IMG/VR virus record: IMGVR_UViG_3300042691_050360
Span: 1-64,000 of that record
Origin: a virus
DNA length: 64,000 bases
Strand: one strand, 5' to 3'
Shown here: piece by piece, positions 2,613-6,678 of the stretch
Position numbering within the stretch: the stretch's first letter is position 1
Layout: every line of letters begins with the position of its first letter
Notes under the pieces: generated by a model
Database searches by the model: none
What the model was told of the DNA's origin: nothing
What the model saw: only the letters and a program-made list of their open reading frames with translations
Made by a program: the position numbers and the translations under genes

Positions 2613-3230
2613 ATGGCTAAATTAAGATTATATGGAGATATTCATGCTGATGGCAAAGTAATCAACGACATGATTCAATCTTGCCATCTTTTTGATTTAA
2701 CCATTCAGATTGGAGATTATGGTGCCGGCTTCGGAGCCGAGCGTTATCTTGATTCTGCCGATAGTGAAAAACTCAAGGTATTACATGGCAATCATGATAA
2801 TCCTCAGATTTTGAATAAATACCCACATGATCTTGGTAGATTTGGTGTGTATGAATTTGCTGGTAAAAAGATTTTCTTTGTTGCTGGTGCTTGGTCTATC
2901 GACTATGCCCATCGCACCCCAGGACTCAGCTGGTGGGCCGATGAAGAACTTTCATATAAGGAAGCAGAAGATTGTCTTGTGTTATGGGAGCAGGTATGCG
3001 GCGAGATTGATTTAGTAATTTCTCACGATGGCCCTCCAAATTTCACTCAATTAATCAAAGGCATTTTCCCCAAGGAAACTCATACAGGAAGATTGCTTTG
3101 GGAGATGTGGAAGATTCATGAGCCGCCATTATGGAGAATTGGTCATTGGCACAAGTCTTTCTCTAAACAGATTGGCAACACACATTTCAAGTGTTTAGAT
3201 ATCAATCAGCAAGAGGTGCTGGAATGGTAA
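2613..3230 (+). CDS. Metallophosphoesterase
   Basis: Calcineurin-like phosphoesterase of about 205 aa. The two-metal motifs are all present in order: GDIH (residues 8-11), a GD near 41, GNHD near 59-62, SHDGPP near 136 and GHWH near 176. The frame stays open upstream to 2463, but that part looks non-coding on this strand, and ATG 2613 follows a CGTATATATT box directly, so I start there. Such enzymes hydrolyse phosphomono- or diesters on nucleotides, proteins or nucleic acid ends; the substrate cannot be inferred. It is convergent with the CCA enzyme gene, with the two stops adjacent. Confidence 0.8.
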   Translation: MAKLRLYGDIHADGKVINDMIQSCHLFDLTIQIGDYGAGFGAERYLDSADSEKLKVLHGNHDNPQILNKYPHDLGRFGVYEFAGKKIFFVAGAWSIDYAHRTPGLSWWADEELSYKEAEDCLVLWEQVCGEIDLVISHDGPPNFTQLIKGIFPKETHTGRLLWEMWKIHEPPLWRIGHWHKSFSKQIGNTHFKCLDINQQEVLEW

Positions 3231-5507
3231 TCACTGTTGTTTGAGCCATTCCAGGGCTTGTTCTTTCGTGCTGAATGTCCCCATTCTCTGTGCTCTCCAC
3301 GCTTCATCTAGCATGAGTTTCACAGATGGCCCGGTCAACCCAAGGACATTCATGATATCATTTCCATTAAGTAATCCAGCCACTTTCTTCATTCTTCGAT
3401 CAAGCCATGCAAGGGCAGATTCTCTTGATTGCATATCTGGATCGTGTCTCAAGATTAGGTTTCTGTGTTCTTTAAGGATTTCTCCAACAATCGGCCCACC
3501 TTTATTATCAAGATAGGGCATAATATCTCTGCCTTGTAGAAGATCGGGGTGCTTGCCCTCGTAGACATTGTGTTGTTTTGCCAGATCAGACATCATTCTG
3601 GCTTCTTGTGGCAGTTCTTTATTAAGTGGTGGTCTGCCTGAGTGATCCGCTTCTATTAGAAGCTCAAGCATTCTAATATTTGCTGGATGTATTTTCTCTG
3701 CAAGTGATTTAACAAAGGCTTCTTGTTTTGGTGTATTAGAATGATGAATATGGCTCAGATGGAATTGCACTAGCGGCACCACTTTATCAATGATGTGTTT
3801 TGGGGCTCCTATTGACTGTAGGAAGGCTTTAGCCTTCTTTCCGCCCTTGTCCTCATGCCCATGAGATGTAATCCTGTCTATGCCTTTTTTATTTATTACA
3901 TCGGTAGTTTCTGGTTTAGCAAAGTCGTGTGCCAGGGCGGAATAAATCAACACTTCACGGTCTTCAGGGCTAAGATTCTCTCTTGTGGCAATATTTGCCG
4001 CTTCGTTCATTACATAGGCTGTATGAGTGGCAACATCACCTAGCTCAACAAGGAGATATATGTGCTTATCAGCAATACCATTGTTATGAGTATCAACATC
4101 ACCTATACCACGAAGATAGAAGTAAAAGATTACGTTATTATCAACGATAGAGAATTTAGGGTCAATTACGCCGGGGGATATGCTAAGATTTCCGTACCCG
4201 GAAGAACCCCTGGGAGCATTTTCTTGCATAGATACATCATGGAGATTCATTTGGGAAGAATCTTGAGCACTAGCGAGCATGTTCATCACATAGACGGCGA
4301 CAGACTTAATAATTCCTTGGATAATTTGGTTGTTCTCGATGGCAGAGCCCATAATTCTGAGCACACTAGGCTTAGGAATCTTAAACATGATCCCAATAAT
4401 TTTGTCTGCTTGTTGTGCGGAGGTTCTAATTTGCCGCACAAAGCTTTTGGATGGTGTGATAAATGCTGGAGGAAAAACCAATGGAGAAAACATAAGGTCA
4501 CTAATCCCTGCACTCTTTGTGGACACCAAATTAATAAAAACAGCCCCAGGCTTGACAGGAAATTGTGTGTGAGCTGTAACATCTCTAGATTTACCGCTTG
4601 CAGGGTTTGCTCCAGAGTTAAGGAGAAGCTCCCTGGACAAAAGATCAATGGGCTTGGATATTGCCACGCCTGCAGTGAAAGAATCAGGAGGCACAATTCT
4701 AACTGACCAGCCTTCGGGATGCCACTCCGAATCCTGAGGAGTATTTTTCAGATCGTGTATTTCAGGGAAGTTTTCAGACCATCCTGTGGTGTAGAGAAAG
4801 TCTAGTGCCTTTCCTGGTTCAATTCCTTTTGTCACGAGTTTTTTAAATTCTTCATACACTCTTTCCTTTGGAAGGTGTTGATATTCTGTTCTTATAGATT
4901 GTGCTAGTTCTGCGGTTTCTGGAGCTAAACTTAAACCAAACCTAGAACCCAAAGATAAAAGTCTAAGCACTCTAAGTGGGTCTTCAGAGAAGGCACTAGA
5001 TGTATGCTTTAATGTTTTATTTTTAATATCTTCAACGCCGTTATAATTATCGATTAAATTATTTGTCAAAGGGTCATATAAAATAGAATTAATAGTTACG
5101 TCTCTTCTACTTGCAGCATCTTTTTCTGAAAGATTTGGATTTGATTTTACAGCAAAATCTTGGTGTTTTTGTCCAGATTTAGATTCAGTTCTGGGTAAAG
5201 AAAAATCATAATCTTCTCCGTCAGCATTTAATTTTATAACACCAAAAGATTTCCCCACCTCAGAAACATCTCCAAATTTTGATAAAATTTCAATAAGTTT
5301 TTCATAAGTCAATCTGAAAACCTCAACATCATAGTCTTTGGGCTTAAAATTTGTTTTATGAATTTGATTGAATAATGAATCTCTAACAATTCCGCCGACT
5401 AAATATCCAGTGCCATTTTGTTTTTGTATTTCTGAAAGTATTTTTTGTAAAACTTCTGGAATCGGTATGTTTAAGCTATTTGATTTCTGAGCAAAATTAT
5501 ACCACAT
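3231..5507 (-). CDS. cca: CCA-adding enzyme (tRNA nucleotidyltransferase), interrupted by an in-frame 672-bp insertion
   Basis: The frame encodes 758 aa. Residues 1-265 are a class II nucleotidyltransferase: VGGIVRD near 37, DYDVEVF near 60, RRDVTINSI near 132 and the DPLRVLR body motif. The last 270 residues carry an HD phosphohydrolase-type domain (ATHTAYVMNEA, ALAHDFAKPE). Residues 266-489 are foreign: they are the antisense reading of an HNH endonuclease gene inserted between WHPEG and DVATHT, exactly at the conserved HD-domain motif. Removing 4039-4710 restores HPEGDVATHT in frame and gives a normal-looking 534-aa enzyme. The enzyme would add or repair the 3' CCA of tRNAs, which the phage CAT tRNA lacks. 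Whether the inserted form is active is unknown. A TATTTA box lies 6 nt upstream of ATG 5507. Confidence 0.8.
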   Translation of the reverse strand: MWYNFAQKSNSLNIPIPEVLQKILSEIQKQNGTGYLVGGIVRDSLFNQIHKTNFKPKDYDVEVFRLTYEKLIEILSKFGDVSEVGKSFGVIKLNADGEDYDFSLPRTESKSGQKHQDFAVKSNPNLSEKDAASRRDVTINSILYDPLTNNLIDNYNGVEDIKNKTLKHTSSAFSEDPLRVLRLLSLGSRFGLSLAPETAELAQSIRTEYQHLPKERVYEEFKKLVTKGIEPGKALDFLYTTGWSENFPEIHDLKNTPQDSEWHPEGWSVRIVPPDSFTAGVAISKPIDLLSRELLLNSGANPASGKSRDVTAHTQFPVKPGAVFINLVSTKSAGISDLMFSPLVFPPAFITPSKSFVRQIRTSAQQADKIIGIMFKIPKPSVLRIMGSAIENNQIIQGIIKSVAVYVMNMLASAQDSSQMNLHDVSMQENAPRGSSGYGNLSISPGVIDPKFSIVDNNVIFYFYLRGIGDVDTHNNGIADKHIYLLVELGDVATHTAYVMNEAANIATRENLSPEDREVLIYSALAHDFAKPETTDVINKKGIDRITSHGHEDKGGKKAKAFLQSIGAPKHIIDKVVPLVQFHLSHIHHSNTPKQEAFVKSLAEKIHPANIRMLELLIEADHSGRPPLNKELPQEARMMSDLAKQHNVYEGKHPDLLQGRDIMPYLDNKGGPIVGEILKEHRNLILRHDPDMQSRESALAWLDRRMKKVAGLLNGNDIMNVLGLTGPSVKLMLDEAWRAQRMGTFSTKEQALEWLKQQ
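4021..4042. repeat. Copy 1 of a short direct repeat flanking the HNH insertion
   Basis: This stretch encodes DVATHT of the CCA enzyme on the minus strand. A near-identical copy lies 63 bp away at 4084-4105; apart from two or three bases the 21-nt cores agree. It lies on the edge of the HNH insertion and may mark the homing site. Confidence 0.6.
4062..4706 (+). CDS. HNH homing endonuclease inserted antisense in the CCA enzyme gene
   Basis: The 214-aa protein has an HNH core near residues 60-100 (FLHRYIMEIHLGR, HVHHIDGDRLNN, LDNLVVL), typical of free-standing phage HNH homing enzymes, followed by several Cys-rich zinc-ribbon-like units (CLLCGG, CDKC, CTLCGH, CVSC, CRVC, CHAC). It should nick or cut DNA at the HD motif of an uninterrupted cca allele. 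GTG 4062 is chosen because AAGGAG lies 6-7 nt upstream; ATG 4086 is the alternative. Its 18 Leu and 15 Ser codons include no TTA, CTA or TCA, which is exactly what keeps the antisense cca frame free of stops. Confidence 0.85.
   Translation: MLISNTIVMSINITYTTKIEVKDYVIINDREFRVNYAGGYAKISVPGRTPGSIFLHRYIMEIHLGRILSTSEHVHHIDGDRLNNSLDNLVVLDGRAHNSEHTRLRNLKHDPNNFVCLLCGGSNLPHKAFGWCDKCWRKNQWRKHKVTNPCTLCGHQINKNSPRLDRKLCVSCNISRFTACRVCSRVKEKLPGQKINGLGYCHACSERIRRHNSN
4084..4105. repeat. Copy 2 of the short direct repeat, inside the HNH insertion
   Basis: Near-identical to 4021-4042 with a 63-bp offset. On the plus strand it encodes the residues around the second possible start of the HNH protein (ATG 4086); on the minus strand it gives a second GDVDTH in the CCA frame just before the genuine GDVATH. 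Confidence 0.6.
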
Positions 5508-5513
5508 ATTATA

Positions 5514-5519
5514 TAAATA
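5514..5519 (-). promoter_or_regulatory. -10-like box, 6 nt before cca
   Basis: On the minus strand TATTTA preceded by G, then 6 nt, then ATG 5507. It is a weaker match to the TATAAT-type consensus but has the same spacing as the other boxes. Confidence 0.4.
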
Positions 5520-5571
5520 CGATATTATTAAAAAAAATCCTTATATTACAGGTACCATTAAGGGCACTTCG

Positions 5572-5577
5572 TAAATA
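5572..5577 (+). promoter_or_regulatory. -10-like box, 6 nt before GTG 5584
   Basis: TAAATA preceded by G, 6 nt upstream of the GTG start. No Shine-Dalgarno site fits in this space, suggesting a leaderless message. Confidence 0.45.
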
Positions 5578-5583
5578 TAATTA

Positions 5584-6678
5584 GTGAAGCAATTTAATTT
5601 CAAAGAAAGAGCTATATTAATTCATGGAGAAAAATACAATTATGACAAAGTTGACTACAAAGACACCATAACTCATATAGAAATCATATGCCCTATTCAT
5701 GGCTCGTTTTTACAAAAACCAAAAAGACATATTAAAGGTAGTGGTTGTCCAAAATGTGGTGGAACTAATAAACTAACACAATCTGACTTTATTGAAAGAT
5801 CTCAAAAAATTCATAAAAATAAATATGATTATAGTCTTTCTGTTTATGAAAATTATGAACATAAAGTTATCATCATTTGCCCGACGCACGGTGAATTTAC
5901 GCAGTCGCCACACATGCATCTTTCTGGACAGGGTTGCCCAAGGTGTGGCGGAACTAATAAACTAACACAGTCTGAATTTATTGAAAGATCTCAAAAAATT
6001 CATAACGATAAATATGATTATAGTCTTTCTGTTTATAAAAATTATGAAGAAAAAGTAATAATTGTTTGCAAAATGCATGGACAGTTTTTACAAACCCCGC
6101 ATATGCACCTATATGGAAATGGATGCCCCGCCTGCCGTGAAAATATTAAAAGAAGTTTAGAAGATTTTATTAAAATATCAAACAATGTGCACAATTTTAA
6201 ATACAATTATGACAAAACAATATATATAAATGACAGAACGGAGGTTATAATAACTTGCCCCAAGCATGGTGACTTTAATTCAGCTCCAAATAATCATATT
6301 TTTGGGGCAACAGGTTGCTATAAATGTAAATCTTCCAAGGGCGAAGAGCTCATTAGAAGATATTTAACTGAACAAAACATTCAGTTCGAAGAACAGAAAA
6401 GATTTTCTGACTGTGTAAATAAAAGATGTCTCCCGTTTGATTTTTTTATCCCTTGTAAAAATATTTTAATAGAATTTCAGGGCTACCAACATTTTAATGT
6501 AGTAAAAAGGTCAAAAACAATGGACGATAATGTATTAAAATTAAATCTTGAAAAAATACAACAAAATGACAAAATTAAAAAAGAGTGGTGTAAAAATAAC
6601 AATATTAAATTAATAGAAATAAGCTATTTAGAAAAAAAAGATATTAATGAAATATTGAAAAATCACTTGTTGGCTTAA
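5584..6678 (+). CDS. DUF723-repeat / EDxHD-type (Vsr-like) homing endonuclease
   Basis: The 364-aa protein has four consecutive ~60-aa repeats (about residues 5-60, 68-123, 131-186, 191-247), each with an IxCPxHGxF segment and a GCPxCGG-type Cys pair, matching DUF723-like zinc-ribbon DNA-binding repeats. The C-terminal domain (about 250-364) carries GEELIRRYL, PFDFFIP and ILIEFQGYQHF, the layout of Vsr/EDxHD nucleases used by mobile endonucleases. Repeats 2 and 3 are almost identical in DNA, so the array expanded recently. It lies divergent from the CCA gene, a region evidently attractive to homing enzymes. Codons are very A+T rich compared with neighbours. Confidence 0.75.
   Translation: MKQFNFKERAILIHGEKYNYDKVDYKDTITHIEIICPIHGSFLQKPKRHIKGSGCPKCGGTNKLTQSDFIERSQKIHKNKYDYSLSVYENYEHKVIIICPTHGEFTQSPHMHLSGQGCPRCGGTNKLTQSEFIERSQKIHNDKYDYSLSVYKNYEEKVIIVCKMHGQFLQTPHMHLYGNGCPACRENIKRSLEDFIKISNNVHNFKYNYDKTIYINDRTEVIITCPKHGDFNSAPNNHIFGATGCYKCKSSKGEELIRRYLTEQNIQFEEQKRFSDCVNKRCLPFDFFIPCKNILIEFQGYQHFNVVKRSKTMDDNVLKLNLEKIQQNDKIKKEWCKNNNIKLIEISYLEKKDINEILKNHLLA
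5758..5869 (+). repeat. Copy A of a 189-bp-period tandem repeat
   Basis: Encodes the start of the second zinc-ribbon repeat of the endonuclease. It is nearly identical to 5947-6058, offset by 189 bp, with only a handful of changes. Confidence 0.85.
5947..6058 (+). repeat. Copy B of a 189-bp-period tandem repeat
   Basis: Encodes the start of the third zinc-ribbon repeat. The high nucleotide identity with 5758-5869 points to recent tandem duplication or gene conversion. Confidence 0.85.

Follow-up and report, generated by a model that had tools for sequence, protein, structure and literature searches.

Introduction

The closest described counterpart of the element reported here is the ShiLan domain, a hidden, out-of-frame HNH endonuclease in the DNA methylases of mycobacteriophages (Arsenault, Gosselin and Gogarten 2025, PMC11855218). 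We describe an HNH gene nested within the gene for a CCA-adding enzyme, antisense to it and in codon register, in a 64,000-nucleotide stretch of phage DNA (the window), positions 1 to 64,000 of an IMG/VR record of 166.5 kb (IMGVR_UViG_3300042691_050360; label G000). Like ShiLan, this is an HNH gene inserted into a phage gene at a conserved position, with empty-site relatives and a stop-free host frame; it likewise lacks intron and intein features, has a disjunct distribution among hosts and is predicted to form a loop in the host protein. The ShiLan HNH, however, is on the same strand as its host and frame-shifted, an arrangement that we confirmed in OwlsT2W and KashFlow, whereas the present gene is antisense and in register, and large phages carry it within a CCA-adding enzyme gene, in part in a genome of 38% GC, where chance open frames are unlikely. 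The terms 'antisense', 'reverse' and 'opposite' are absent from the text of the ShiLan paper (PMC11855218).

Other homing genes offer partial parallels. Antisense homing endonuclease genes are known in group I introns of nuclear ribosomal DNA (PMC9548176), where the homing gene also opposes the host strand but resides in a spliced intron, so that the host frame is irrelevant. Inteins with a nested homing endonuclease are likewise found at conserved host motifs, in frame and translated with the host, whereas the present element has no splicing domain and carries its nuclease outside the host frame. The free-standing HNH genes of T4-type phages, which also lack a splicing element, insert in intergenic regions (PMC2988022) and not, as here, within a coding gene that is kept open. 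No antisense translate-through homing gene was found in the open-access literature.

We propose, with a probability of roughly 0.8, that a homing HNH gene without intron or intein is kept translatable through the CCA-adding enzyme of its host. A preliminary description of the locus had presented this as a novel means of limiting the damage done by a homing gene, which holds for the antisense form; the hidden-HNH strategy itself is partly known, the same-strand ShiLan domain having been published in 2025 (PMC11855218). What is new here is the antisense form, its recurrence and the persistence of the frame after the death of the HNH gene.

Results and discussion

The host gene and its insert

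The host open reading frame (ORF; 3231–5507, minus strand, 758 residues) is continuous across the insert and encodes the PolyA_pol head, the RNA-binding neck (PolyA_pol_RNAbd) and the HD domain of a class II HD-containing CCA-adding enzyme; its predicted fold resembles those of CCA-adding enzymes such as 1miv. The HNH endonuclease ORF (4062–4706, plus strand, 214 residues) lies entirely within it on the opposite strand, both frames being open, and position 3 of each HNH codon is opposite position 1 of a CCA-adding enzyme codon. The product matches HNH_3 (PF13392; E = 8.8e-10, 38.5 bits against a cut-off of 24.8 bits), with EHVHHIDG..NN...NL and the Cys pairs conserved. Alternative starts are GTG 4062, with a Shine–Dalgarno-like AAGGAG recognized from the sequence 6 nt upstream (4050–4055, plus strand), and ATG 4086, which aligns with the start of the related HNH gene in contig L130 (see below). 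A scan for promoters and terminators gave candidate promoters no better than those in shuffled sequences.

The preliminary description, which proposed comparison with homologous phages lacking the insert, had correctly placed an antisense HNH gene inside a CCA-adding enzyme gene with the frame preserved and the minus frame free of stops. Two such homologues are on contigs L055 (62 kb) and L057 (347 kb), with enzymes 71 and 63% identical overall to that of the window. Their junctions read HPEG-DVDVHT and HPEG-SVDVHT, against HPEG, 223 codons and then GDVATHT in the window. Because both sites are empty, the 672-nt segment is a true insertion. Its described size of 672 bp (224 codons) agrees with the empty sites and is refined here to 4041–4709, i.e. 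223 CCA-frame codons, plus one duplicated Gly codon. Nearly all of it is HNH ORF (645 of 672 nt), with 21 bp before GTG 4062 and 3 bp after the stop codon.

The insert separates a catalytic core ending in ...EWHPEG (4710–5507, minus strand) from the HD domain and tail beginning GDVATHT... (3231–4040, minus strand). The site is the conserved HPEG motif, as had been described, but the position is the core/HD junction and not a loop within the HD fold. In contig L191 the core (1790–2557) and the HD domain are in consecutive ORFs divided at this same site; the core/HD junction therefore tolerates separation. L191 was considered as a further same-site insertion but rejected, since its core and HD ORFs are naturally separate.

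In the AlphaFold model of the window enzyme, the predicted local distance difference test score (pLDDT) is mostly 80–94 in the core and 76–97 in the HD domain and tail, and falls below 50 across most of residues 267–486, which correspond to the insert. The HD-domain residues are retained, and in comparison with L055 the HD half has a nonsynonymous divergence (dN) of 0.14 with synonymous divergence (dS) saturated, a saturation that puts branch-specific dN/dS beyond resolution. These comparisons indicate purifying selection on the HD half, and the occupied enzyme probably retains its function. They also bear on the suggestion that the open frame serves only against transcriptional polarity or ribosome stalling on a long minus-strand mRNA, the catalytic core being all that matters. 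The core does lie upstream of the insert, and the separate ORFs of L191 fit such an explanation, but selection on the HD half and retention of its residues do not, nor would polarity conserve the CCA-frame peptide found in contig L182 (see below); we consider it unlikely.

The conserved site and patchy spread also recall introns and inteins, so that an unusual self-splicing element, missing from the mature protein, has to be weighed. There was no Rfam intron match at E up to 1 in window positions 3000–5700, and none at gathering score in L130 or L182; no intein or Hint family match, and no intein splicing domain, was found in the insert. The insert junction (HPEG/W...L/GDV) has no Cys, Ser or Thr as its first residue and no His-Asn at its end, and the HNH ORF occupies 645 of the 672 nt. 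An intron, moreover, needs no open frame, yet L182 retains one. Self-splicing is thus very unlikely, in agreement with the earlier statement that intron core and intein ends are lacking.

An 18-nt host sequence at the insertion junction, GGTGATGTTGCCACTCAT (4023–4040, minus strand), which encodes GDVATH, has a near-copy within the insert, GGTGATGTTGATACTCAT (4086–4103, minus strand), at the 5' coding end of the HNH gene. The match is 19/21 for the 21-mer that includes three flanking bases, while the best of 2000 codon shuffles reaches 16/21. The near-repeat was not found in L130 or L182; it is possibly a duplication formed at insertion.

Recurrence at the same site

A second live HNH gene occupies the same site in L130, a distant, jumbo-phage-like contig of 226 kb that was binned with a Dependentiae metagenome-assembled genome but has phage genes for an RNA polymerase, a DNA polymerase and tail fibres. 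This gene is also antisense and in register and contains no TTA, CTA or TCA; its host ORF of 690 residues is open. The HNH proteins of L130 and the window are 47% identical and the CCA-adding enzymes 35%. The L130 HNH also detects the HNHs within mycobacteriophage methylases (E about 2e-4). When both HNH proteins were held fixed and codons were drawn from the respective genomes, 12.2 host-frame stops were expected across the two genes, against none observed, and 0 of 3000 simulations were stop-free. The CCA-frame peptides of the two inserts are 27.9% identical, compared with 21–23% expected (p about 0.006–0.03), a modest indication that the antisense peptide itself is constrained.

A relic of the element is present in L182, a 379-kb contig whose 722-residue CCA-adding enzyme has a 170-codon insert at the window's site, beginning with the same Trp. 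In single comparisons, its CCA-frame peptide matches that of the window at E = 2.5e-7 and that of L130 at 2e-4. The HNH strand has nine in-register stops, and the EHVHHIDGD motif is degraded to N*ARRIRCN. All 170 codons of the insert are free of stops in the CCA frame (P about 2e-6 given the base composition), against 8–22 stops in the other five frames. Identity to the window is higher in the CCA frame (27.6%) than in the HNH frame (18.6%), the reverse of the window–L130 pair. With the nuclease dead and the frame open, selection thus held the host frame after nuclease loss.

L182 is also what speaks for overprinting, in which the CCA-frame peptide would be an older, true enzyme domain and the HNH gene would have arisen later upon it: here the peptide exists without a live HNH, and the model of the insert is moderately ordered (pLDDT mostly 51–68 over about residues 334–440). 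The HNH family, however, is large and present in many unrelated places, whereas no Pfam family matches the CCA-frame peptide, which is absent from the other CCA-adding enzyme genes checked, and the antisense N*ARRIRCN, where the live genes have EHVHHIDGD, is a decayed HNH motif. Overprinting is most improbable.

Stop-codon avoidance and chance

For an antisense gene in this register, host-frame stops arise only from TTA, CTA and TCA codons, all of which can be replaced synonymously. The preliminary description had reported none of them among the 18 Leu and 15 Ser codons of the window HNH gene, and a recount gave zero. The probability of no host-frame stop is 7e-6 with the codon usage of the window and 1.3e-6 with that of the host gene. 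The same description had called chance unlikely on this basis and suggested codon statistics for other HNH genes. In the 78 other, non-nested HNH genes that served as calibration, using GC content at third codon positions and overdispersion, TTA, CTA and TCA make up about 30% of Leu and Ser codons.

Several observations weigh against our proposal. Once calibrated on these genes, P rises to 0.0099 for the window and 0.038 for L130, and two of the 78 also lack TTA, CTA and TCA altogether. The codon usage of the window HNH gene is atypical in general, with no GCA, ACA or CCA (8.5 expected) and no CGN (6.5 expected). The excess CCA-frame conservation between the window and L130 is modest, and their HNH genes share one ancestor, so that their common register is not independent evidence. 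The set at the CCA site numbers just two live members and one relic, all on metagenome contigs, and any sequence as poor in relatives as the insert would be expected to appear disordered in the AlphaFold model.

The single-gene codon argument is accordingly suggestive and not decisive, weaker than had been claimed. The calibrated values and the wider codon bias are what would be expected if the HNH gene derived from a genome in which TTA, CTA and TCA are rare, the frame being open by luck and the host gene inactivated. Chance becomes quite unlikely, beyond the single-gene statistic, because of L130 and L182: both occupied live alleles are stop-free, and 170 codons remain open in L182 although no HNH remains to conserve. 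The conserved HD half and the 30% share of these codons in non-nested HNH genes argue in the same direction. That the element evolved to be translated through its host, as first suggested, is well supported at the level of sequence by the empty sites, L130 and L182.

Distribution and possible homing

On the tree of CCA-adding enzymes, hosts with and without the insert are intermingled; the three occupied alleles are scattered, and well-supported branches force three changes, a pattern compatible with homing or with repeated loss. The window gene is itself a mosaic: in host numbering with the insert removed, residues from about 180 to about 480, which span both insert flanks, are 82–95% identical to L055, while the first 180 residues are only 31–68% identical. 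These flanks could be a co-conversion tract. The patchy distribution and the mosaic flanks are the features that hint at active homing by the window HNH.

The window HNH had no match at 1e-5 among annotated phages, and that of L130 matched phage and plasmid sequences only in part. Among 101 Dependentiae genomes the L130 contig was the sole match, and there was none in 47 Eisenbacteria-phylum or 399 Providencia-phylum genomes.

Similar genes in other hosts

Among about 100 distinct HNH loci, seven further HNH genes are antisense and in register within very long open ORFs; they came to light via their open frames and are not, on their own, proof of selection. Three are found within giant polyvalent-protein ORFs, in their ADP-ribosyltransferase (ART-PolyVal) region (L136, 4704–5402; L139, 4676–5197; L155, 4854–5408). 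In each the host frame is open, polyvalent ADP-ribosyltransferase sequence precedes the insert and conserved in-frame sequence follows it, and on this comparison polyvalent-protein ORFs are a second host family of such genes. The remaining four (L008, 3827–4372; L060, 4866–5333; L153, 4578–5441; L135, 116–535) are in ORFs of 667–3272 codons, some with polyvalent-protein features.

The in-frame HNHs of L052 and L054 were rejected as comparable cases: both occur within polymerase-like ORFs that show intein-like ends, and neither is unusual beside the antisense genes. In L047 an HNH gene (3929–4708) is antisense in a different register, within an intein-like insert of a terminase-like ORF (2682–5222, minus strand); this insert begins CVVEGTPVLMADG and terminates FVNKNC.

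Neighbouring features

Adjoining the CCA-adding enzyme gene, window positions 5584–6678 contain an ORF with repeated zinc-finger-like units (DUF723/DUF4379), possibly another mobile nuclease. The window enzyme, which starts at 5507, shares the beginning MWY[KR][YF]... with several unrelated neighbouring phage proteins (L055, 1126, 2087, 2656 and 3221; L057, 968, 1936 and 7509; L182, 3998). In L055 and L057 a similar sequence ending in AGATT lies upstream of these starts, a putative shared start cassette.

Proposed mechanism and implications

In the mechanism that we favour, a homing HNH gene would have inserted at the conserved HPEG/GDV site in the CCA-adding enzyme gene of a phage, in reverse orientation and in codon register, and would then have shed all host-frame stops by synonymous replacement of TTA, CTA and TCA, its own protein remaining unchanged. 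A homing gene can become translatable through in this way, with its protein intact, because every stop in this register is synonymously replaceable; from the genetic code, the same property would explain why the antisense in-register orientation recurs. Straight-through translation would yield a CCA-adding enzyme with a largely unstructured linker of about 223 residues between core and HD domain, while the HNH protein would be made from the opposite strand and would presumably cut empty alleles, repair then copying the element in. We infer that both proteins are expressed, that CCA-adding activity is retained and that cleavage and homing take place.

More tentatively, and with slightly less than even confidence, antisense in-register insertion may offer homing genes a general, non-splicing route to residence in essential coding genes, the host-frame stops being all synonymously removable. 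It would have arisen in CCA-adding enzymes, in polyvalent ADP-ribosyltransferase domains and elsewhere, and after the death of the nuclease its antisense-encoded peptide would persist as a newly acquired stretch of protein, L182 being an example.

The CCA-site element widens the ShiLan finding, made on the same strand in mycobacteriophages that are GC-rich, to an antisense gene, to an AT-rich genome and to another host enzyme. A selfish nuclease gene may occupy conserved coding sequence without an intron or intein, by synonymous changes only. Such loci would be natural examples of extended protein-coding overlap between opposite strands for which selection gives a clear reason. They would also show how a homing gene, once dead, may give rise to a new segment of protein whose code lies on the opposite strand.
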